15,936 bases of DNA. It comes from an uncultured Clostridia bacterium (lineage in GTDB: Bacteria; Bacillota; Clostridia; Peptostreptococcales; Anaerovoracaceae). Below, in pieces: positions 6,309-15,936 of this stretch. The translations under genes were made by a program, and so were the position numbers. Positions within the stretch are counted from its first letter, which is position 1. The number at the start of each line of letters is the position of its first letter. The stretch is from NCBI GenBank assembly GCA_934255435.1, contig CAKQNZ010000035.1, positions 1 through 15,936 on the forward strand, given 5' to 3'. The notes beneath the pieces are model-generated. The model ran no database searches and had not been told where the DNA came from. It saw only the letters and a list, made by a program, of their open reading frames with translations.

Positions 6309-7550
6309 ATGAATAAAATAAGCAAAAATTTATTTGAAGAACAGGTTTTCAGAAGAACATTCAAAGTGATATACAAATTCATAAGCAGGAACATCCTGAA
6401 ATGGATAGACATATTCTTCGGAGTATGCTACAGGAAGATATATTCGCTGTTTCTGAAGACCGAAAAGAACAAGGTAGTATTTTTCGTTTACCAGGGACAG
6501 TATACCTGCAACGCCAAGTACATAACAGAGGAGCTGGTGAAACGAAAAAAAGAAAATCCGGAGCTTGATATCGTATGGCTGGTAAACAAGAAGGTCATCG
6601 AAACCAGGGAAGACACGGATATACCTGAGGAGGTAAGACTTGTAAGAAAAGGTTCTGCAGATGGAGTGTATGAGCTTATGACAGCGAGAGTATGGGTGGA
6701 CAATGCACTGAACTGTCTGTGGAAGATCATCCCCAAAAAGAAGGATCAGATATATCTGAACACATGGCACGGCTCGCTGGGCATAAAGAGACTGGATACA
6801 TATAATCCTGCATACTGGAGATTCATAGCCAGGCTCAGCAGGAAGAGGATCGACTACATGATCACCAACAGTGATTTTGAAAACAATGTATTCGAAGAGT
6901 CATACTGGCAGGGCACGCCAAAGACGATGCTGGGACATGCCAGAAACGACATGTTCTTCGATGAAGAATGTATGCAGGGGCTCAGGAAAAAGGTATGCGC
7001 TCACTACAGGATAGACGAAGATACACGTATACTGCTGTATGCACCTACTTTCAGGAGCGATAAGGATACACAGCCTTTTGATATAGACTACAGCAGACTT
7101 TATGCTGCACTGTCAGAAAAATATCCCGGCAAATGGAAGCTGATGCTGAGATATCATTTCCACAACAGGAAGAAAAATGACTTCGATGAAGCAGACTATA
7201 TAATAAATGCCACGGAGTACCCTGATATACAGGAGCTGATGGCAGCAGCAGATATCGGGGTAACAGATTATTCCAGCTGGATATACGATTTTATGCTGAC
7301 AAGGAGGCCATGCTTTATATATGCGTCGGATCTCAAGGAGTACAATGAGGATCGTGGCTTCTATTACAAGCTGGAAACGACGCCGTTCATGATAGCAGAA
7401 AATACAAAGCAGCTGTGCAGCAACATAAAGAATTTCGACGGCTGCGTGTACAGCAGCAGACTGGATACTTTTCTCAAAGAGAAAGGCTGCATGGAAGATG
7501 GCAAAGCCAGCACTCGCATCGTGGATATGATGATGGGATATCTCAAATGA
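6309..7550 (+). CDS. CDP-glycerol glycerophosphotransferase family protein (TagB/TagF-like)
   Basis: A 413-residue GT-B type enzyme of the Glyphos_transf family. Visible motifs: TWHGSLGIKR at 152-161, APTFR at 245-249, RYHFH at 281-285 and VTDYSSWIYDFML at 318-330. The first His (154) matches the catalytic His of TagF; the second catalytic His is probably 283 or 285, although the usual KxHP spelling is absent. A basic, partly amphipathic N-terminus (1-50) may bind the membrane. The enzyme transfers glycerol phosphate, or a related alditol phosphate, from a CDP donor to a lipid-linked acceptor. At about 410 residues it is closer to TagB primers (about 380) than to long TagF polymerases, but primer and polymerase cannot be separated by length alone. 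The start is fixed by an in-frame stop codon directly before the ATG. GAAAGGG lies about 12 bases upstream. Confidence 0.88.
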   Translation: MNKISKNLFEEQVFRRTFKVIYKFISRNILKWIDIFFGVCYRKIYSLFLKTEKNKVVFFVYQGQYTCNAKYITEELVKRKKENPELDIVWLVNKKVIETREDTDIPEEVRLVRKGSADGVYELMTARVWVDNALNCLWKIIPKKKDQIYLNTWHGSLGIKRLDTYNPAYWRFIARLSRKRIDYMITNSDFENNVFEESYWQGTPKTMLGHARNDMFFDEECMQGLRKKVCAHYRIDEDTRILLYAPTFRSDKDTQPFDIDYSRLYAALSEKYPGKWKLMLRYHFHNRKKNDFDEADYIINATEYPDIQELMAAADIGVTDYSSWIYDFMLTRRPCFIYASDLKEYNEDRGFYYKLETTPFMIAENTKQLCSNIKNFDGCVYSSRLDTFLKEKGCMEDGKASTRIVDMMMGYLK

Positions 7551-7620
7551 TACTTCATATGTGATGCAATATCATTGCCAGCAGGTAAATAGTGTAGTCA
7601 GAGGTTTATTCAATTATTTT

Positions 7621-7626
7621 AAGAGG
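7621..7626 (+). promoter_or_regulatory. Ribosome binding site selecting the GTG start of tagG
   Basis: AAGAGG lies 9 bases before GTG at 7636. The longer frame from GTG at 7561 has no ribosome site before it, and its extra 25 residues do not look like part of the permease. I see no convincing promoter between 7551 and 7620. Confidence 0.6.
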
Positions 7627-7635
7627 TATTTTAAC

Positions 7636-8442
7636 GTGAGTACGATCAAAACGATTTTTACTGAACACTTGACATACAGAAGACAGATCTTCAAACTTGC
7701 CAAATCAGATCTTGTGAAGACATACAGAGGATCCGCTCTGGGGTGGACATGGGCGTTCATCAAGCCTATAGTGACACTGTTCGTGTTCTGGTTCGCATTC
7801 AGTGTGGGACTGAGGCACGGCAAGGATGTGGACGGATATCCGTTCTTTCTGTGGCTGGTGGCAGGATTCCTGCCATGGTTCTATATGAGTGAAATGATAA
7901 CCGGCGGAGCGGGATGTATCAGAAAGAACAAGCATCTTGTGACGAAGATGAAATTCCCAGTGTCTGTCATACCGACATATACCAGTCTGTCCAAGCTGAC
8001 AGTGCATATCATACTACTGATAACGACGATACTGATATTCGCAATCTTCGGACACAGACCGGATATATATTATCTGCAGATACCTGTATATATGCTGATG
8101 ATGTTCGTTTTCTTCACATTCTGGGCACTGTTTTCAGGTATGCTTTCTGCGATAAGCAAGGACTTTCTTAATCTTGTAAAATCCTTCACTCAGGCTCTGT
8201 TCTGGATGTCGGGCATCGTATACAATGTCAGTGGTATAAAAGTGCCATGGATAAGAAAGGTGCTGGAATACAATCCCGTGACTATCATCGCCAGCGGATA
8301 CAGACATGTGTTTATAGACAAGACCTGGTTTTTCGATTCGCTCCATGAGATCAAATGCTATCTCATCGTACTGGCTGTGATGATAATCCTGGCGGTATGG
8401 GCGTACAGGAAGCTTTACAGGGATATTGCAGATGTGCTTTAG
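7636..8442 (+). CDS. tagG: Teichoic acid ABC exporter permease (TagG/TarG-like)
   Basis: A 268-residue ABC-2 type permease with six expected membrane helices. The N-terminus runs into LAKSDLVKTYRGSALGWTW and an IKP turn, the hallmark of polysaccharide and teichoic acid export permeases. Later parts include the GFLPWFYMSEMITGGAG coupling region and a C-terminal NPVTIIASGYRHVFI segment. With the ATPase encoded directly downstream it should export the finished lipid-linked polymer. The GTG at 7636 is chosen because of AAGAGG 9 bases upstream, and the resulting length is typical for TagG. The stop codon is 11 bases before the next start, and the downstream ribosome site begins right at it, so the two subunits are tightly coupled. 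Confidence 0.88.
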   Translation: MSTIKTIFTEHLTYRRQIFKLAKSDLVKTYRGSALGWTWAFIKPIVTLFVFWFAFSVGLRHGKDVDGYPFFLWLVAGFLPWFYMSEMITGGAGCIRKNKHLVTKMKFPVSVIPTYTSLSKLTVHIILLITTILIFAIFGHRPDIYYLQIPVYMLMMFVFFTFWALFSGMLSAISKDFLNLVKSFTQALFWMSGIVYNVSGIKVPWIRKVLEYNPVTIIASGYRHVFIDKTWFFDSLHEIKCYLIVLAVMIILAVWAYRKLYRDIADVL

Positions 8443-8453
8443 AAAGGGATATC

Positions 8454-9179
8454 ATGAAAGAGAAAGAAACAGTTATATCCTTTAAGGATGTTACCAAGAC
8501 GTACAAATTATACAAAAGCGATAAAGCGAGGTTTTTAGGACTTTTCACGAAAAAAGTCCCATATAAAGAAAACAAAGCTGTTGATCATGTTTCATTTGAT
8601 ATCAAAAAAGGCGAGGGCGTAGCGCTGTTCGGCAGAAACGGTGCAGGTAAATCTACTATCATGAAGATGATAACAGAGGTCACCTTTCCCAGCGAAGGCA
8701 GTATCGAAGTCAGAGGTCGTGTCAGTGCGCTGCTGGAGCTCACTGCAGGATTCGACGGCGAGTGTACAGGCCGTGAGAACATATATCTCAAATGCAATCT
8801 GATGGGTATGAACGACAGACAGGTCAGAGAAGTTGAGGATATGATAGTTGATTTTGCGGAACTTGGCGACTATATAGACCAGCCTGTAAGGACGTATTCC
8901 AGCGGTATGAAAGCAAGACTGGGATTTTCCATAAATGTCAACGTGGATCCTGAGATTCTTATCGTGGACGAGGCGCTCAGCGTAGGCGACAAGGCGTTCA
9001 GAAAGAAATGTACGAGCAAGGTCCAGGAGATCATGGCGGACGGCAATGTTACATTCCTGTTTGTAACACACTCTACGTCCATGGCAAGGGATTTCTGTCA
9101 GCGAGGTATCGTCCTCAAAAAAGGAAAGAAAATATACGACGGCGACATAGAAGGCGCCATCGAGCTTTACGAAAAATAA
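8454..9179 (+). CDS. tagH: Teichoic acid ABC exporter ATPase (TagH/TarH-like)
   Basis: A 241-residue ATP-binding subunit. Walker A is GRNGAGKST at 60-68, the signature YSSGMKAR at 148-155, Walker B ILIVDEALSVGD at 168-179, and the switch His in VTHS at 206. The N-terminal part with TKTYKLYKS and the signature SSGMKAR are typical of polysaccharide and teichoic acid exporters. The long C-terminal extension of Bacillus subtilis TagH (over 500 residues) is missing, as in many short homologues. The ATG at 8454 follows AAAGGG by 5 bases; the longer frame from 8355 would lie inside tagG and lacks such a site. It powers export together with the upstream permease. Confidence 0.92.
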   Translation: MKEKETVISFKDVTKTYKLYKSDKARFLGLFTKKVPYKENKAVDHVSFDIKKGEGVALFGRNGAGKSTIMKMITEVTFPSEGSIEVRGRVSALLELTAGFDGECTGRENIYLKCNLMGMNDRQVREVEDMIVDFAELGDYIDQPVRTYSSGMKARLGFSINVNVDPEILIVDEALSVGDKAFRKKCTSKVQEIMADGNVTFLFVTHSTSMARDFCQRGIVLKKGKKIYDGDIEGAIELYEK

Positions 9180-9196: not shown

Positions 9197-9637
9197 ATGA
9201 AAAGAGTACTTACCTACGGGACATACGACCTGCTGCATTACGGACATATAAGACTTTTGAAAAGAGCAAAAGAGCTGGGGGACTATCTCATCGTAGCCAT
9301 ATCTACAGATGAGTTCAATGCGATAAAAGGCAAGAAAGCATATCACGACTATGAGACCAGAAAAGAAATGCTGGAAGCCGTGCGCTATGTGGATCTTGTG
9401 ATACCTGAGAAAACATGGGAACAGAAGATAGACGATGTGAAGGAATACCATGTAGATGTTGTCGTCATGGGCAGCGACTGGGCTGGAAACGAGAAGTTCG
9501 AGCAGCTCAGGGATTACTGTGAAGTGGTGTATCTTGACAGGACAGAAGGCGTTTCCACATCAAAAATAAAAAAAGAACTCAATCTTCAGGCACCTGAGGA
9601 CAATATCAATCAGATACCTGAAGAAAAACATGATTAG
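9197..9637 (+). CDS. tagD: Glycerol-3-phosphate cytidylyltransferase
   Basis: A 146-residue cytidylyltransferase that makes CDP-glycerol from CTP and sn-glycerol 3-phosphate, the donor for glycerol-type teichoic acids. Visible motifs: the N-terminal YGTYDLLHYGH with the HxGH nucleotide-binding signature (14-17), AISTDEFN, the KKAYHDYETRKEML stretch, VMGSDW, and the closing RTEGVSTSKI loop. It is close to Bacillus TagD throughout, with a short acidic tail. A strong AGGAGG lies 6 bases before the ATG at 9197; the longer frame would overlap tagH. It is the third gene of the tagG-tagH-tagD run. Its stop codon overlaps that of the convergent minus-strand gene by 4 bases. Confidence 0.95.
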   Translation: MKRVLTYGTYDLLHYGHIRLLKRAKELGDYLIVAISTDEFNAIKGKKAYHDYETRKEMLEAVRYVDLVIPEKTWEQKIDDVKEYHVDVVVMGSDWAGNEKFEQLRDYCEVVYLDRTEGVSTSKIKKELNLQAPEDNINQIPEEKHD

Positions 9638-9648
9638 CTTTTTTTCTT
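9621..9648. terminator. AT-rich inverted repeat at the convergent gene ends, possible bidirectional terminator
   Basis: AAGAAAAA (9621-9628) and TTTTTCTT (9641-9648) form a perfect 8-bp stem around a 12-base loop that holds both overlapping stop codons. It gives T-rich 3' arms on both strands, but the stem is weak, so termination may be inefficient. Confidence 0.35.
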
Positions 9649-10761
9649 ACTGAATATGAAGTCAACGATATCCTGCGTTTCGTGATCACTTCCTGAATAT
9701 ACATATTTGTTCAGGAACTTTTCAACATCTTCGGGACGGCAGATATCGTTTTTTATTGCCTGGACTGTTTCTGCAGCTGTACTGCAGACAGGACCGGGCA
9801 TTTCTTTTCTGTAGTCCATGTATATGTCACGGTTACCCATATAGTGCTCGTAATCGTATGTGTAGAGATAAAGAGGGAGCTTTCTGATGGCTGCCTCGTA
9901 TATGATGCATGAGTAGTCGCTGATGACATAATCTGCGATGAACAGCATATCGAAGGATGAAAAATCATGATCGACAATGGCATGCTCATGTGTCAGATCC
10001 AGCTTGGCCAGTGGATGCGCCTTTATTATCAGGTCATAGCTTTCGTAATCCACTGCATCGGCAAGAGCTGCAGCAGCGGCTCTGAAGCTTTCAGGCTCAT
10101 CTTTCCTGAAAGTAGGTACATAAAGTATATTTTTTTTCCTGCTGAGCTGAGGGTATTTTTCCAGTATTTTATGCCTTGTCTTTTCTGCTCGCGCTTCGTC
10201 TTTCAGCGCTTCGACTCTTGGCAGAGGCAATGTCACGATCTTTTCGATCGGATAGTTGAATCCTTCTGCAAGATGGGGCTTGTATGCCTCCGATGCAGCC
10301 AGGATGTAGTCGTATCCTCTGTGCATTTTCATGGTATGAGCAAGCTTCGATGATGAACCTTCGGGCATATCCAGTATGCTGTATCCGAATTTCTTCATGG
10401 TGCCGACAGAATGCCACATCTGTATCACCAGCAGGCTTTCTTTGTGATCCAGGATACTGACGAGGATGGAGTATGAATCCAGTACGATGACTTCGGAAGT
10501 CGCCAGATGATACATCTGGCGGAGCATATGGAAGCAGTATCCAAGTTTCGATGCGATACCGCCTTCGAGCTTCCGGCAAAGTATGACACATTCATAATCC
10601 GGATGGAGTTCGGTTATCTTTTCTGCAAGCATCCTGATATCAAGAGACGGTTCGTTGCTCTGACGGCTGATGAATGTCACTTTTTTTGAAGCTGGCAGAA
10701 GCTTGAAGAACCAGTATATAAACGATAAGATCTTAACGGCTGCATTCAGTAAAATGTACAT
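9634..10761 (-). CDS. CDP-glycerol glycerophosphotransferase family protein, minus-strand copy
   Basis: A 375-residue protein with one N-terminal membrane helix (about 5-22) followed by the GT-B fold. Motifs: QMWHSVGTMKKFG at 114-126, VPTFR at 215-219, IIKAHP at 245-250 and ISDYSCIIYEA at 280-290. His 117 and His 249 match the two catalytic His residues known in TagF, but WHG reads WHS and the DYSS serine pair is DYSC. It should transfer an alditol phosphate from a CDP donor at the membrane; acceptor and polymer are unknown. The start at 10761 follows AGGAGGT by 5 bases and is the only one downstream of the predicted transcription start; the longer frame to 10881 crosses the promoter. It is the only transferase gene here read against the rest of the cluster, with its own promoter. 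Confidence 0.87.
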   Translation of the reverse strand: MYILLNAAVKILSFIYWFFKLLPASKKVTFISRQSNEPSLDIRMLAEKITELHPDYECVILCRKLEGGIASKLGYCFHMLRQMYHLATSEVIVLDSYSILVSILDHKESLLVIQMWHSVGTMKKFGYSILDMPEGSSSKLAHTMKMHRGYDYILAASEAYKPHLAEGFNYPIEKIVTLPLPRVEALKDEARAEKTRHKILEKYPQLSRKKNILYVPTFRKDEPESFRAAAAALADAVDYESYDLIIKAHPLAKLDLTHEHAIVDHDFSSFDMLFIADYVISDYSCIIYEAAIRKLPLYLYTYDYEHYMGNRDIYMDYRKEMPGPVCSTAAETVQAIKNDICRPEDVEKFLNKYVYSGSDHETQDIVDFIFSKKKS

Positions 10762-10766
10762 ATATG

Positions 10767-10862: not shown

Positions 10863-12560
10863 ATGGATTTTTACGAAACAAATGATTTTGAAGTAGTTGA
10901 CCTGCAGTGGGAGCGTATTTTTCTCAGGTTTGATATAAAGACAGAATACCGGGGAGATATGCAGTTCGGCATCCTTCTCGTCGACAGAGAAACTGTCAAT
11001 GAGAAAGAAGTGAAGAAGTACGGCGAAAAGCCGGTAAAGAGCACTGAGGCGAGACGCCTGATACCCATAGATCCGTATGAGTCAGAAGACGGTATATACA
11101 GGTTCAGGATAAACATGTCGGCAGCAGACGGCAGGGAATTTCTCGACAACGCTGTCTGGAAGATCGGCATCGTCACAGGCAGAGGTTTTTCCATAGCAGG
11201 CACATCTGTTGATCTGGCGTACCAGCTGGAGGACCGGGCCAGGATATTCAGGTACGGCCGTGGCAGATACGCATACAATGTTTCTTTTTCTGTTACTTAT
11301 TTCAATGAAAAGAATCTTGAATTCAACATCAACAGCAGATTCATGATCGAAAATAAAACATGGAAAAGGCGCAGATACATCCAGGAGGCTTTCACCTTCA
11401 AAGGCAAGCTGAACCGTACCTACAAATACATGGTCATATGGATGATAAGAGCGTTCTATCATGTGATGGCGGCTCTGACGCCGAAGGACGGCAGCAGGAT
11501 ACTGTTCATGTCGGAGACAAAGGACTATATCTGGGGCAATCTCAAATATATCGACGACCGCATCAAAGAAAGATGTCTTGATAAGGATTTCAGACTGACA
11601 TATTCCTGCAGGAAAGCGGCAGGCGAGCACAATTCAGCGCTGAGCTGGGTAAAGACAGTTTTCCATATTGCAAAGCAGGACTATATATTCGTGGACGACT
11701 ATGCACCGCTGTTCGGATTTTTCAGGCTCAGCCCGAAAACGAAGCTGATACAGGTATGGCATGCCGGTGAAGGTTTCAAGTCTGTAGGATACAGCAGATT
11801 CGGCAGAGACGGATCACCGTTTCCTTCGATGTCATGTCACAAGGCATATGACTATGCGCTGACAGGGGCAGAAAAACTGGTGGAAGTGTACGAAGAAGTC
11901 TTCGGTATCGAGAAGAGCGCATTCCTGCCGACGGGTATGCCGAGGCTTGATGATTTCCTCGACAGCGACAGGATAAACAGTTTCCGCAAGGAGTTTTATG
12001 ACAGATATCCGAAACTGGCAGGCAGGAAGATCATACTCTTTGCACCTACATTCAGAGGTACAGGTCAGAAGGATGCATATTACGACTATGACCAGCTGGA
12101 TCTTGGACGTATGCATGATTTCTGCAGCAGCGACTACGCTGTGCTTTTCAAGATGCATCCGTTCATCGACGAGCGCATAGCGATACCGCAGGAATATCAG
12201 GACTCGCTGTTGGATTTCTCGGAATATCCTGATATCAACGAGCTGTACTATATCACTGACGTGCTGATAACAGATTATTCATCAAACTATTACGAGTATG
12301 CACTTATGAAAAAGCCGGTGCTGTTTTTCACATATGACAGGCAGATATACGAGGTGACAAGAGGCGTTCACAGGAGCGTCAGAGAAAATGCACCGGGAAA
12401 AGTCTGCGATACTTTCGATGAACTTATGTCTGCACTGGAAGACAGTGATTTTGAGACAGATAAACTGGACAGGTTCGTCGAGGAGAATTTCGGAGAGTAC
12501 GACGGACATGCATGCGACAGAGTCATAGACAGGATACTGCTCGCAGACAAGGAGGTTTGA
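10863..12560 (+). CDS. CDP-alditol phosphotransferase with N-terminal domain (TagF/TarL-like)
   Basis: A 565-residue protein in two parts. Residues 1 to about 185 look mostly beta-strand and contain no transferase motif; similar N-terminal regions precede many TagF-family enzymes and their function is unclear. Residues about 205-565 are the GT-B transferase: QVWHAGEGFKSVG at 297-309, APTFRG at 394-399, FKMHP at 429-433 and ITDYSSNYYEYA at 469-480. His 300 and His 432 match the catalytic His pair. Length is close to TarL/TarF-type polymerases. GAGAGGG lies 6 bases before the ATG. It heads an operon with a TarI-like cytidylyltransferase, as TarL is linked to TarI in Staphylococcus, which suggests it may use a CDP-activated unit other than glycerol. 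The substrate is inferred from context only. Confidence 0.87.
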   Translation: MDFYETNDFEVVDLQWERIFLRFDIKTEYRGDMQFGILLVDRETVNEKEVKKYGEKPVKSTEARRLIPIDPYESEDGIYRFRINMSAADGREFLDNAVWKIGIVTGRGFSIAGTSVDLAYQLEDRARIFRYGRGRYAYNVSFSVTYFNEKNLEFNINSRFMIENKTWKRRRYIQEAFTFKGKLNRTYKYMVIWMIRAFYHVMAALTPKDGSRILFMSETKDYIWGNLKYIDDRIKERCLDKDFRLTYSCRKAAGEHNSALSWVKTVFHIAKQDYIFVDDYAPLFGFFRLSPKTKLIQVWHAGEGFKSVGYSRFGRDGSPFPSMSCHKAYDYALTGAEKLVEVYEEVFGIEKSAFLPTGMPRLDDFLDSDRINSFRKEFYDRYPKLAGRKIILFAPTFRGTGQKDAYYDYDQLDLGRMHDFCSSDYAVLFKMHPFIDERIAIPQEYQDSLLDFSEYPDINELYYITDVLITDYSSNYYEYALMKKPVLFFTYDRQIYEVTRGVHRSVRENAPGKVCDTFDELMSALEDSDFETDKLDRFVEENFGEYDGHACDRVIDRILLADKEV

Positions 12561-12562
12561 TG

Positions 12563-13333
12563 ATGAGTAAGAATATAGCGATAATATTTGCAGGCGGCAG
12601 CGGCGCCAGGATGGGTGCAGGACTGCCGAAGCAGTTCATAGAGGTGAACGGCAAGCCTATCATAATCCATACACTGGAGATATTCGAGGAACATCCTCAG
12701 ATAGACAGTATATATATAGCCTGCAAACCGGACTATATAAACAAACTGAAAAAGTATGTACAGAGATTTTTCATAACGAAAGTGGCGGACATCGTTCCGG
12801 GAGGGACTACAGGTCAGGATTCCATATATCAGGCGCTGAGTGCTGCCGCAAAGGAGAATCAGGAGGACTCCATCGTGCTGATACATGACGGTGTCAGACC
12901 GTGTGTGCAGAGTGAAGTCATCACAAGTGCCCTTGAGTGCGTGGAGAAGAACGGTTCAGCCATAACATGCACTCCGCTGTTCGAAACGCCGATAATGAGC
13001 AATGACGGTATCACGATAGACGATGTGCCTCGCAGGAGCCAGTGCTATACAGCTCAGGCGCCTCAGTGCTTCCGACTTGGCGATGTGATGGAAGCCCACG
13101 GCAAAATGCGTGAAACAAACCCTGAGTACAAGGATATCGTTGATACATGCACATTGATGAGGAGCCTCGGCAGGACAGTCTCCATCGTAGAAGGCAACAG
13201 AGGAAACATCAAAGTCACTACGCCGGAAGATCTCTACACATTCAGAGCGATGATACAGTACAAGGAGACAGAGCAGGTATTCGGATTCGCTGACAGAGAA
13301 GTAGTCGGCAGACTGAAAAAGACAGAAAGGTAG
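12563..13333 (+). CDS. IspD/TarI-type cytidylyltransferase
   Basis: A 256-residue nucleotidyltransferase. The CTP-binding loop is FAGGSGARMG with PKQF following (9-25), LIHDGVRP lies at 106-113, QAPQCFRLG at 165-173, and the closing NIKVTTPEDL at 215-224. These fit both IspD (methylerythritol phosphate) and TarI (ribitol 5-phosphate). The operon position between two TagF-like genes favours a CDP-alditol or CDP-sugar role in surface polymer synthesis. The usual GGxxRxxS segment reads GGTTGQDS (80-87), lacking the Arg, so it may be a distinct subgroup with another substrate. AAGGAGG ends 7 bases before the ATG at 12563; the ATG at 12560, which overlaps the previous stop codon by one base, is an alternative. 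Translation is evidently coupled to the upstream gene. I leave the symbol empty because the substrate is not certain. Confidence 0.85.
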   Translation: MSKNIAIIFAGGSGARMGAGLPKQFIEVNGKPIIIHTLEIFEEHPQIDSIYIACKPDYINKLKKYVQRFFITKVADIVPGGTTGQDSIYQALSAAAKENQEDSIVLIHDGVRPCVQSEVITSALECVEKNGSAITCTPLFETPIMSNDGITIDDVPRRSQCYTAQAPQCFRLGDVMEAHGKMRETNPEYKDIVDTCTLMRSLGRTVSIVEGNRGNIKVTTPEDLYTFRAMIQYKETEQVFGFADREVVGRLKKTER

Positions 13334-13340
13334 GTACAAA

Positions 13341-14372
13341 ATGAGCATAATACTCAAAGAAGACATAAACAATATACTGGCTGCAGATCTGCAGTGGGAG
13401 AAGTTCAAAGGAGCGTCAGTGCTCATAACAGGAGCTACAGGTATGCTGGGCGGATATGTGCTGAGGACACTGGTGGAGCTCAACAGGAGCAGAGACTACG
13501 GCATGACGCTGTATATCCTGATACGTCATCCGGAGAAGCTTGACGAAAGTCTCAGAGACGAGGTGACTGTCATCTGCCAGAGCGTTGCAGAACCTGTGGG
13601 ATCGAATGCGAAGTTCGACTACGTGATACACACAGCAAGTCCCGCGAGCCCGCTGATAATGAAAAACGACCCTGCAGGCACTATTGCAGCAAATACTCTG
13701 GGTACATTCTATACCCTGCAGGCTGCGCAGAGAAGCAATGCGAAAGGATATCTCTATATTTCATCGAGAGAGATCTACGGACAGCCATACGAAGGACAGA
13801 ACGTGTTCAGCGAAGACACATACGGATTCGTAGATCCGCTGGAACCGAGATCCTGCTATCCTGAAGGCAAGAAAGCGGCAGAGACTATGTGCGCATGCTT
13901 CAGACAGCAGTACGGACTGAATACCAAGATAGCGAGACTGGCGCATACATTCGGCCCCGGCATGAGCATAGATGACGGACGCGTGCAGGCGGACTTCCTG
14001 AGGAATGTTGTGAATCACGAGGACATCGTACTGAAGAGCGAAGGCACTGCCATCAGGACATACACATATGTCAGCGATGCAGTAAAGGCGCTGTTCTATA
14101 TACTGCTGGATTCAGATGATATCGTATACAACATTTCATCAGAGGCAGACACAGTATCCATAAGAGACCTGGCGCAGACGCTGGTGGACGCTTTCCCTGA
14201 GAGAAACCTCAAGCTGGTGTTCGACATACCTGAAGCAGACAAAAATTCAGGCTGTGCACCGTTCACACTTGGTATACTTGGAAGCGACAAGATCAAGGCG
14301 CTGGGATGGAAACCTGACTACAGGCTGGATGAAGGACTCAAGAGGACAGTGATGTATCTGGAGGGAAAATAG
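13341..14372 (+). CDS. Extended SDR NAD-dependent epimerase/dehydratase (UDP-glucuronate decarboxylase-like)
   Basis: A 343-residue extended short-chain dehydrogenase. The NAD-binding loop is TGATGMLG at 30-37, HTASPASP lies at 97-104, the active-site serine region is YISSREIYG (139-147), and the Tyr-Lys pair is in RSCYPEGK (Y173, K177). The HTASPASP, RSCYPEGK and FGPGMSIDDGRV stretches resemble UDP-glucuronate decarboxylases, but members of this group act on varied NDP-sugars. The gene starts 7 bases after the TarI-like gene; AGG repeats around that stop codon serve as ribosome site. It stands where TarJ, a zinc-type alcohol dehydrogenase, sits in ribitol clusters, but is unrelated to it. 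It may act on the CDP-linked product of the upstream enzyme or make its substrate; that is a hypothesis. Confidence 0.85.
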   Translation: MSIILKEDINNILAADLQWEKFKGASVLITGATGMLGGYVLRTLVELNRSRDYGMTLYILIRHPEKLDESLRDEVTVICQSVAEPVGSNAKFDYVIHTASPASPLIMKNDPAGTIAANTLGTFYTLQAAQRSNAKGYLYISSREIYGQPYEGQNVFSEDTYGFVDPLEPRSCYPEGKKAAETMCACFRQQYGLNTKIARLAHTFGPGMSIDDGRVQADFLRNVVNHEDIVLKSEGTAIRTYTYVSDAVKALFYILLDSDDIVYNISSEADTVSIRDLAQTLVDAFPERNLKLVFDIPEADKNSGCAPFTLGILGSDKIKALGWKPDYRLDEGLKRTVMYLEGK

Positions 14373-14375
14373 GCA

Positions 14376-15936
14376 ATGGATATAAAAGCCGTACTGAATA
14401 ATATACGAAAAAAAGGCATACGAGGCACACTGGAGCTTAGGAAACGCAGGAAAAACGAAAGAGAAAATAAAGCCGTACTGCGTGAGGCGCTGGACAGGAT
14501 ACTCAGAGAGACGAGAGATGATGAGCTGTTTCTCAGGATCAAAGAATACTACGAGAAAACATATATCCCGGCTTTGTATAAGGATATGTCATATATCGAG
14601 GCTGACCGCAGCAAAGTAGTGTTCCTGGCAGGAAAAGGTCATGAAAACAAAGCTTCGGAAACATACAGCCATATAAAAACCAAAAAAGGCATAAAAGCAG
14701 AATACTTCCAGCTGGACAGCGACGTGTATCTCAGCGAACCTTGCGGCAGCAGAGTCAGCAATGCTGTAATATCAGCAGCAGGAGCAGGCACGATAGTGAT
14801 ATGCGGGGATATTCCTTTTGCAGATGATATCGGATACAGGAAAGAGACGACTGTCATAGACGACGTGTACAGAGCAGGACACAGCGGCAGCGATGCGGAG
14901 CTGATAGCCGGACTGGCTGTTCCGGTGACAGAGGCATCAGCAGGTGAAAGGCCACAGGTCGTTTTTCCTGACGGCATGAAAAAGAAAGATTTCATAGAAG
15001 CTGAACATATGAAGCTTTTCCCGAAGGAACTGAACGGACCGCTGAAAAAATACTATATCAAGAGCTTCCTTCCGACTGTGTATGAGCATTTCAGGAAGGA
15101 CCCTGTAGAAGAAAACAAAGTGATAATACTGCAGCAGCGGTCGAACCTGAATTCCAGCTGCAAGTCGATATACCATTCACTGAAAGACGATCCGTATTTC
15201 AATGTGATTTTCCATGAACTCAGGAGCAAAAAAGTATCTGCAGTCAGATATTATCAGAATGCAGCCCTTTTCGTGGCTGATTTTGCCGCTGCCCGAGCTG
15301 TGATAACACATGAGCAGAGCGAGATACTGGGCTCTATCGACATAAGACCTGAAAGCCTGTTCATACAGCTGTGGCACGGACTGCCGCTCAAAAAACTGAG
15401 GCTGAGCATTGCAGGCATGCCAGGATACAAATCCCTTAAAGGTTTTGAAGAATATCCTGAAAGCAACTACGATATCGTGACTATCGCAGCTCCGGAGTGG
15501 AGACCTGTATTCGAGGAATTCATGGGACTTGAAAAGGATACGCCGGTGATACAGTCTCTCGGTATACCAAGGACCGACCAGTTCTATGACAAGGAGTATA
15601 TAGACAGATGTTATGAAAAACTCCACAGCAGGATACCTGCGTCGACAGAAAAGAAAGTGATACTGTATGCACCTACATACAGAGGGCTTGAACCGAACCG
15701 TGTGGCTCCTGATGAAATAGACATAGGGATGTTTGCGGAAAAGCTCAGCGACGACTACATCCTGATCATAAAGCACCATCAGACACTCAGTACATGGCCC
15801 AAGATACCGCAGCAGTACAGAGACAGCTTTGCATACGACATGACCAAAGGCAAGGGAATGGATATAAACGAACTGATGACTGTTTCGGATATATGCATAA
15901 CAGACTATTCTTCACTTGTGTTCGATTTTGCCATAT
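14376..15936 (+). CDS. TagF-family transferase with long N-terminal extension, cut by window end
   Basis: The frame is open for 520 codons to the window end, so the C-terminus is missing. The transferase part starts near residue 247 and shows QLWHGLPLKKLRLS at 331-344, APTYRG at 432-437, IIKHHQ at 464-469 and ITDYSSLVFDFA at 508-519; His 334 and His 467 or 468 match the catalytic pair. The first 60 residues are highly charged and probably helical. Residues about 80-170 form an alternating strand/helix stretch (VVFLAGKG, TIVICGDIPF, TTVIDDVYRAGHSG) that resembles the N-terminal half of a GT-B fold and could be a decayed duplicate. GGAGGG lies 10 bases before the ATG, which is 3 bases after the SDR stop codon. 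It is the fourth transferase of this family here. Its donor may be the product of the two preceding genes. Confidence 0.87.
   Translation, partial: MDIKAVLNNIRKKGIRGTLELRKRRKNERENKAVLREALDRILRETRDDELFLRIKEYYEKTYIPALYKDMSYIEADRSKVVFLAGKGHENKASETYSHIKTKKGIKAEYFQLDSDVYLSEPCGSRVSNAVISAAGAGTIVICGDIPFADDIGYRKETTVIDDVYRAGHSGSDAELIAGLAVPVTEASAGERPQVVFPDGMKKKDFIEAEHMKLFPKELNGPLKKYYIKSFLPTVYEHFRKDPVEENKVIILQQRSNLNSSCKSIYHSLKDDPYFNVIFHELRSKKVSAVRYYQNAALFVADFAAARAVITHEQSEILGSIDIRPESLFIQLWHGLPLKKLRLSIAGMPGYKSLKGFEEYPESNYDIVTIAAPEWRPVFEEFMGLEKDTPVIQSLGIPRTDQFYDKEYIDRCYEKLHSRIPASTEKKVILYAPTYRGLEPNRVAPDEIDIGMFAEKLSDDYILIIKHHQTLSTWPKIPQQYRDSFAYDMTKGKGMDINELMTVSDICITDYSSLVFDFAI

Follow-up and report, generated by a model that had tools for sequence, protein, structure and literature searches.

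A cytidylyltransferase and extended reductase pair, probably a CDP-alditol synthase, in a clostridial wall-polymer cluster

Contig CAKQNZ010000035.1 of an uncultured Clostridia bacterium (15,936 nucleotides, referred to here at its full length as the window) contains part of a wall-polymer cluster in which two adjoining genes code for an IspD/TarI-family cytidylyltransferase and an extended short-chain dehydrogenase/reductase (SDR). Sequence comparison suggests that the two are probably a two-enzyme synthase of a cytidine diphosphate (CDP)-linked alditol, probably glucitol, that serves a phosphate-linked teichoic-acid-like polymer. The route itself is already known in other bacteria, and the window is a further example of it, not a new kind; what is new here are single-chain fusions of the two enzymes and a residue signature in the reductase. 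The two genes are:

12563..13333, + strand: IspD/TarI-family cytidylyltransferase (PF01128 IspD, E 6.4e-49), proposed CTP:D-fructose-6-phosphate cytidylyltransferase
13341..14372, + strand: extended SDR of 343 amino acids (PF01370 Epimerase, E 5.2e-36), proposed NADPH-dependent CDP-ketose (CDP-6-D-fructose) reductase of the Arg143/His202 ('R/H') subfamily

The gene pair and its recurrence

The cytidylyltransferase starts at the ATG at 12563 (or 12560), within a longest open reading frame (ORF) running from 12512 to 13333; it is separated from the SDR gene by 7 bases, and the SDR gene from the next TagF-like ORF (14376) by 3 bases. The coordinates, spacing, 343-residue length and motifs given in an earlier, sequence-only reading of this DNA are all present in the ORFs and their translation. 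A PF01128 gene adjoins a PF01370 gene, and residues K23, D109, R112 and K217 of the cytidylyltransferase are invariant in a 27-row alignment.

A scan of genome contigs with an alignment of the SDR alone returned 119 relatives, of which the best 80 loci were kept. Of the named organisms among these 80, Catenibacillus scindens is the closest (74%). A cytidylyltransferase lies beside the SDR or is fused to it in 66 of the 80, as an IspD-like ORF on the same strand and no more than 350 bp away in 57 loci and as a single ORF with the SDR in nine. An IspD-like ORF is present at a greater distance in five loci (L007, L012, L015, L017 and L032), the contig is cut short in three (L022, L053 and L063), and one (L062) is ambiguous. 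Eight of the fusions are intact single chains of 587–608 amino acids (L033, L035, L039, L040, L041, L043, L046 and L058), all eight are followed by a TagF-like gene, and the three checked against Pfam have PF01128 and then PF01370; the ninth single ORF (L080) and one locus counted among the 57 (L059) are apparent fusions broken by a stop or frameshift. In the Lactobacillales, 26 of 295 genomes matched the SDR, the query's own among them, and 25 of the 26 have an adjoining IspD-like gene, as do all 31 streptococcal loci examined. As a control, the SDR is absent from all 11 neighbourhoods of other PF01128 (IspD-family) genes in relatives, four of which (L188, L189, L194 and L196) have one side cut by or near a contig end, and two of which (L197 and L198) have exporter or LicD genes as neighbours and could hold paralogues instead of IspD genes of the methylerythritol phosphate (MEP) pathway. 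With 66 of 80 SDR loci set against none of 11 control neighbourhoods, the pairing is not a matter of chance, and the pairing and the intact fusions together suggest that the enzymes perform two steps of one pathway. A survey of neighbours of the kind the sequence-only reading had called for finds a TagF-like ORF directly beside the pair in 43 of the 80 loci and anywhere in 56, and LicD directly beside it in six, with a LicD-like ORF anywhere in 18 (two weak-scoring). Pairs also occur on plasmids of Streptomyces and L. plantarum; no relative of the SDR was seen in the viral contigs searched.

The sequence-only reading regarded the route as unusual, a view that is not supported. Both families are known from Campylobacter jejuni HS:5, where HS5.18 and HS5.17 are reported to make CDP-6-D-fructose and reduce it to CDP-6-D-glucitol, and Mnp1/Mnp2 of Streptococcus pneumoniae 35A to make CDP-mannitol by the same scheme, in a study that had already counted about 400 PF01128+PF01370 pairs (PMC10918830); AbpB, the neighbour of AbpA, which is reported to serve CDP-arabinitol synthesis (PMC10118250), is likewise an extended SDR. 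The main text of PMC10918830 describes neither a single-chain fusion nor the TagF setting. HS5.18/HS5.17 serve a Gram-negative capsule, whereas the window pair lies in a TagF cluster.

Fold, active site and subfamilies of the reductase

When the SDR sequence is compared with PDB entries, human UXS1 (2b69) scores highest at 134 bits and 8v4g is next at 121 bits; 8v4g and 8v4h are structures of HS5.17, the C. jejuni reductase of CDP-glucitol synthesis (PMC10918830). An AlphaFold2 model of the window SDR (predicted local distance difference test score 92.6; 43 sequences in the alignment) is closest in Foldseek to 8v4g/8v4h (E 1e-27 to 1.3e-26; template modelling score 0.83–0.86 by query length), by a small margin over UXS1 (E 1.5e-26). 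It also has a predicted N-terminal helix ahead of the Rossmann fold, and a helix before the first strand was called atypical for SDRs in the HS5.17 paper (PMC10918830). The label 'UXS-like' in the sequence-only reading describes the sequence match well but probably not the function.

Fourteen residues discussed in PMC10918830 were tabulated in HS5.17 numbering. Nine are retained in the window SDR (R56, K60, E140, R164, Y167, K171, R208, D212 and R233), and these bind NADP and the CDP-sugar in the HS5.17 structure (PMC10918830). The other five are replaced (T98 by Ala, S100 by Pro, M139 by Arg, Q196 by His and T227 by Ser), and of these Met139 and Gln196 are alditol contacts in the characterised reductase (PMC10918830). 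N34, T195, F226 and Y295 are also changed in the window SDR or its clade. The window SDR shares with HS5.17 the fold, the N-terminal helix, the YxxxK motif, the NADP and pyrophosphate residues and a cytidylyltransferase in the same cluster, but it is 29% identical to it (the SDRs being compared here and not HS5.18) and lacks the Met/Leu139, Gln196, Thr98, Ser100 and Thr227 that mark the HS5.17 subfamily. With UXS1 it shares the ASPASP and CYxEGK motifs, but UXS1 lacks K60 in the alignment, and the serine of the UXS SxE motif, which we take to be S119 of human UXS1 in both number and role, is Arg143 in the window. The decarboxylase or epimerase activity suggested in the sequence-only reading is disfavoured by this arginine, which stands where HS5.17 has Met139 and UXS1 has Ser.

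Positions 139 and 196 (Arg143 and His202 of the window SDR) sort the reductases into types. First, in the superclade that includes the window, Arg is present at position 139 in 63 of 63 rows and His at position 196 in 62 of 63 (R/H type). Second, the 18 rows of the HS5.17 clade have Met (17) or Leu (1) at the first position and Gln (18 of 18) at the second. Third, a Lactobacillales clade has Val and Arg, in 15 of 15 rows each (V/R type). Finally, another clade has Ser at position 139 in four of four rows, as does UXS1. In a 71-row tree with anchors, built from chosen rows, the Met/Leu-Gln rows and HS5.17 form one clade (support 99/98) and the Val-Arg rows another (100/99). An earlier SDR tree, with long proteins trimmed to their last 350 residues, excluded L045, L053, L059, L062 and L080 (partial, broken or unclear) and L081 (the same gene as L068), and the active-site table additionally excluded L106; in both trees the branches leading to HS5.17 and UXS1 are very long. 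AbpB belongs to the Ser type, having Ser at the Arg143 position; it was read from L127, a Streptococcus-type capsule locus to which both published abpA primers (PMC10118250) match exactly. An order-wide scan with an abpA primer matched 108 of 395 genomes at three or fewer mismatches, one exactly (G324) and the rest with two or three mismatches, which we take as chance, and the primer was not matched in the four genomes examined from the genus of G189.

Two observations on individual types may be added. Three Met/Gln-type reductases among the 80 loci (L064, L066 and L070) have no IspD-like gene within about 10 kb, both flanks being present. Two contigs of the archaeon Methanobrevibacter carry an R/H reductase (L051, 9995–11038; L052, 9986–11029) with LicD-like genes nearby and a divergent IspD-like neighbour that sits on a long branch of the cytidylyltransferase tree; transfer from Firmicutes is possible, as is wrong binning of the contigs.

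Substrate and product of the pair

The cytidylyltransferase tree contains 122 rows, drawn from matches above 90 bits with long proteins trimmed to their first 250 residues; seven partial, doubtful or duplicate rows were left out (L031, L059, L062, L072, L080, L081 and L130), as were 26 others that were refetched copies or close relatives or were dropped to keep the tree small. The window protein falls in a 27-row clade (100/99). The streptococcal R/H-type partners (12 rows, two of them identical, giving 11 distinct) and that of L025, also R/H, nest among the partners of Met/Gln-type reductases, and L067 has the reverse combination, a Met/Gln reductase with a window-type cytidylyltransferase. 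Since partners have been exchanged between the types, both reductases probably take the same CDP-ketose, and hence CDP-6-fructose. The window cytidylyltransferase is 53–56% identical to that of L067 and 43–47% identical to seven Met/Gln-reductase partners (L065, L068, L141, L142, L146, L147 and L171).

The polymer for which an R/H enzyme may work is best seen in Streptococcus agalactiae. The R/H relatives, among the best 120 of 1233, include S. agalactiae protein P0258 and proteins of S. porcinus, S. halichoeri, S. uberis and Lactococcus lactis, and those of S. agalactiae, S. porcinus and S. halichoeri were matched to loci. P0258 (509 member sequences) is of R/H type, is the same as the window SDR at 14 of 14 tabulated positions, and is 64% identical to L139 and 98.9% identical to L140. 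The surroundings of L140 (locus L164) hold an rmlD-like gene (a label assigned from the start of its sequence), a WchF-like glycosyltransferase, LicD, the pair and Wzx; this gene content is as expected of a rhamnopolysaccharide locus and is likely that of the group B carbohydrate. As in the window the pair lies in a locus for a phosphate-linked glycan, although with LicD instead of TagF. The group B carbohydrate contains rhamnose, galactose, N-acetylglucosamine and glucitol and is phosphodiester-linked (PMC3375309, PMC7188991), and the genes for the D-glucitol-phosphate moiety of S. agalactiae are described as previously uncharacterised (PMC10918830). With the S. agalactiae R/H enzyme linked in this way to a polymer that contains glucitol, CDP-D-glucitol is our best single prediction for the product of R/H reductases, a prediction drawn from homologues that are 39% identical.

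We propose that the cytidylyltransferase would use CTP and a ketose phosphate, for which D-fructose-6-phosphate is the most likely candidate, to make CDP-6-D-fructose. The SDR would bind this in its open-chain form and reduce C2 with NADPH to a CDP-hexitol, most likely CDP-6-D-glucitol, with Tyr173 and Lys177 as the catalytic pair and Glu144 and Arg170 at the sugar and pyrophosphate (window numbering). A TagF-like enzyme, for which the product of 10863–12560 is the best candidate, would then transfer or polymerise the hexitol-phosphate onto a lipid-linked wall polymer that would also carry glycerol-phosphate, supplied via TagD, and be exported by TagGH. Two suggestions of the sequence-only reading fit this scheme, both by indirect argument: that the pair probably supplies another activated unit in addition to CDP-glycerol, and that the SDR acts on a CDP-linked intermediate, which is very probable and has a precedent in C. 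jejuni HS:5 (PMC10918830).

Several observations weigh against the glucitol proposal. First, UXS1 outscores the CDP-glucitol reductase by plain sequence and follows it closely by structure. Second, the alditol contacts and other residues differ from those of HS5.17, and the substrate or stereochemistry could therefore differ as well. Third, the R/H clade, which also takes in one Ala-His and one Arg-Gln row, is modestly supported (86/76 in the 71-row tree). Fourth, in the cytidylyltransferase tree it is the AbpA type that groups with the C. jejuni-type partners (93/95), while the window clade stands separately, so that specificity for fructose-6-phosphate rests on the exchange of partners. Fifth, identity between the SDRs of the window and of S. 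agalactiae is only 39%, and the naming of L164 as the group B locus relies on its gene order and its match to S. agalactiae and not on the annotation of a record. Finally, and less easily reconciled, S. uberis has an R/H protein (P0260, 3 member sequences), and its rhamnose polysaccharides are reported with glycerol phosphate (PMC12235971), possibly in strains other than those with the pair.

The main rival, which we consider unlikely although worth keeping in view, is that the same pathway operates but the R/H reductase yields the other C2 epimer, CDP-D-mannitol, in the manner of Mnp1/Mnp2, whose likeness to the window in scheme and families is as described in PMC10918830. Mnp1 and Mnp2 are reported to be 45% and 30% identical to HS5.18 and HS5.17 (PMC10918830), distances much like the 43–47% and 29% of the window proteins, and the alditol-contacting residues of the window SDR are unlike those of the glucitol enzyme. 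Against this, the one polymer that could be linked to R/H reductases, the group B carbohydrate, has glucitol, and no S. pneumoniae name occurs among the best 120 of 1233 R/H relatives, a minority of which are named. Mnp2 was not located by the literature search, by a scan of the genus Streptococcus (45 of 284 genomes with a match) or by the R/H protein search (best 120 of 1233), and it is for this reason that we allow mannitol some weight. An early idea that the R/H type makes mannitol, reached by elimination, was dropped once the S. agalactiae protein appeared in the R/H group.

A pentulose version of the pathway, from D-xylulose- or D-ribulose-5-phosphate to CDP-arabinitol or CDP-ribitol, is improbable. 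AbpA and AbpB act on xylulose-5-phosphate and are a known pair of the same two families; in L127 a gap of 5 bases separates the PF01128-type gene from the extended SDR gene downstream of it. In Enterococcus faecalis the TarI homologue EF2172 and the epimerase/dehydratase EF2171 belong to a locus with a ribitol-phosphate product (PMC7188991). However, pentitols are made less likely by the cytidylyltransferase tree, in which the AbpA and V/R types have a 26-row clade of their own (100/99); the window protein is 36–37% identical to AbpA, lower than its identity to the Met/Gln-reductase partners, and AbpB has Ser and not Arg at the signature position. Three loci with a V/R-type pair (L199, L200 and L201) have the order LicD, cytidylyltransferase, SDR, family 2 glycosyltransferase, a gene of about 460 amino acids and LicD; in L199 and L201 a WchA-like gene lies upstream. 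This order is similar to that of the decoration region in the E. faecalis EPA locus, where EF2171 has been assigned to UDP-rhamnose (PMC7188991); if EF2171 is of the same SDR family, it may make CDP-ribitol instead.

We give very little credence to the view that the cytidylyltransferase is simply the IspD of the MEP pathway or a TarI, with the SDR incidental. The window protein does pass both the IspD model (TIGR00453, 181.8 bits, 0.5 bit over the cut-off of 181.3) and the D-ribitol-5-phosphate model (NF001183, 175.3 bits, cut-off 166), but both models are also passed by L147, which is paired with a reductase of the C. jejuni type, and we therefore reject these NCBIfam names as evidence of substrate. 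In four of 15 genomes searched (G009, G010, G011 and G014) the pair copy is the sole strong PF01128 match, others being weaker; the mevalonate route would presumably explain this in the archaeon G011 and in Lactobacillus ruminis (G014), and incompleteness may do so in metagenome-assembled genomes. In the other 11 there is a strong PF01128 gene in addition to the pair copy or, in G013, at a place away from the SDR, and at least one extra copy lies by glycopolymer genes in G013 and G015. TarI feeds TagF-like polymerases and is of the same superfamily, but its reductase TarJ is a zinc-type alcohol dehydrogenase, and no gene of that kind turned up in the main ORFs of the window, itself only part of the cluster; in the tree the three TarI anchors group on their own, with the window protein outside their clade. 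In Haemophilus Bcs1/Acs1 a cytidylyltransferase works together with a classical short SDR, whereas the SDR of the window and of the fusions found here is of the extended type.

The least credible alternative is that the SDR is a UXS-like decarboxylase or epimerase of a UDP-sugar unrelated to the cytidylyltransferase: UXS1 is its top PDB match by sequence, nearly level by structure, and shares two motifs with it, but the structure search puts the CDP-glucitol reductase first, the SxE serine is Arg throughout the window superclade, the NADP-binding R56 and K60 are kept, and the SDR is fused to cytidylyltransferases in single chains.

The surrounding cluster and wider occurrence

The TagF-like genes flanking the pair and the TagD gene, all noted in the sequence-only reading, are borne out by family matches, and the window contains four TagF-like genes:

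3–326: end of an integrase-core (rve) transposase gene, a remnant at the cluster edge, which we take to be IS3-type
6309..7550, + strand: TagF/TarF-like glycerophosphotransferase (PF04464, E 8.4e-64; TarF 133 bits, under the cut-off of 550)
7561..8442, + strand: TagG-like ABC-2 permease (PF01061, E 2.3e-17), polymer-export role suggested by position
8451..9179, + strand: TagH-like ABC ATPase (PF00005, E 2e-19), polymer-export role suggested by position
9197..9637, + strand: TagD, glycerol-3-phosphate cytidylyltransferase, for CDP-glycerol supply (TIGR01518, 188.5 bits, cut-off 165.4)
9634..10764, − strand: TagF-like glycerophosphotransferase (PF04464, E 1.2e-52)
10863..12560, + strand: TagF/TarL-like polyol-phosphate polymerase, directly 5′ of the pair (PF04464, E 1.8e-69)
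14376..15936, + strand: TagF-like ORF directly 3′ of the pair, leaving the window edge (PF04464, E 6.8e-40)

The top NCBIfam match of 10863–12560 is TarL (311 bits, under the cut-off of 1000), and its product is a candidate polymerase for the alditol-phosphate. The window also encodes GtrA-type and glycosyltransferase-2-type proteins and a YfhO-family membrane protein, together with a polysaccharide-flippase match under its cut-off.

More tentatively, and with rather less confidence than we have in the assignment of the pair itself, R/H reductases and their partners (split, or fused in some Clostridia) may mark teichoic acids of glucitol-phosphate or another hexitol-phosphate, made by TagF-like polymerases in gut Firmicutes, with the Arg143/His202 positions forming a readable sugar-alcohol code that would extend from clostridial walls to pneumococcal capsules and the group antigens of streptococci. 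A literature search for hexitol teichoic acids gave only PMC10918830, which is weak evidence as subscription journals were mostly outside its coverage. If the proposed role of the pair is right, gut Firmicutes with the cluster build a hexitol as well as glycerol into the polymer of their walls, and new labels could be given to many genes now called IspD, TarI or epimerase. The S. agalactiae link nominates the pair as a candidate supplier of group B carbohydrate glucitol, and the fusions offer a one-protein CDP-alditol synthase as a possible enzyme tool.

Two further arrangements recall the window. A TagF-like gene of the minus-strand type at 9634–10764 also lies on the opposite strand directly after the pair in L005, L008 and L013. 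On a plasmid of Streptomyces sp. NBC_01324 (L186, 5722–9050) the order of the window, glycerophosphotransferase, cytidylyltransferase and SDR, is repeated, and the reductase is an Ala/His variant.

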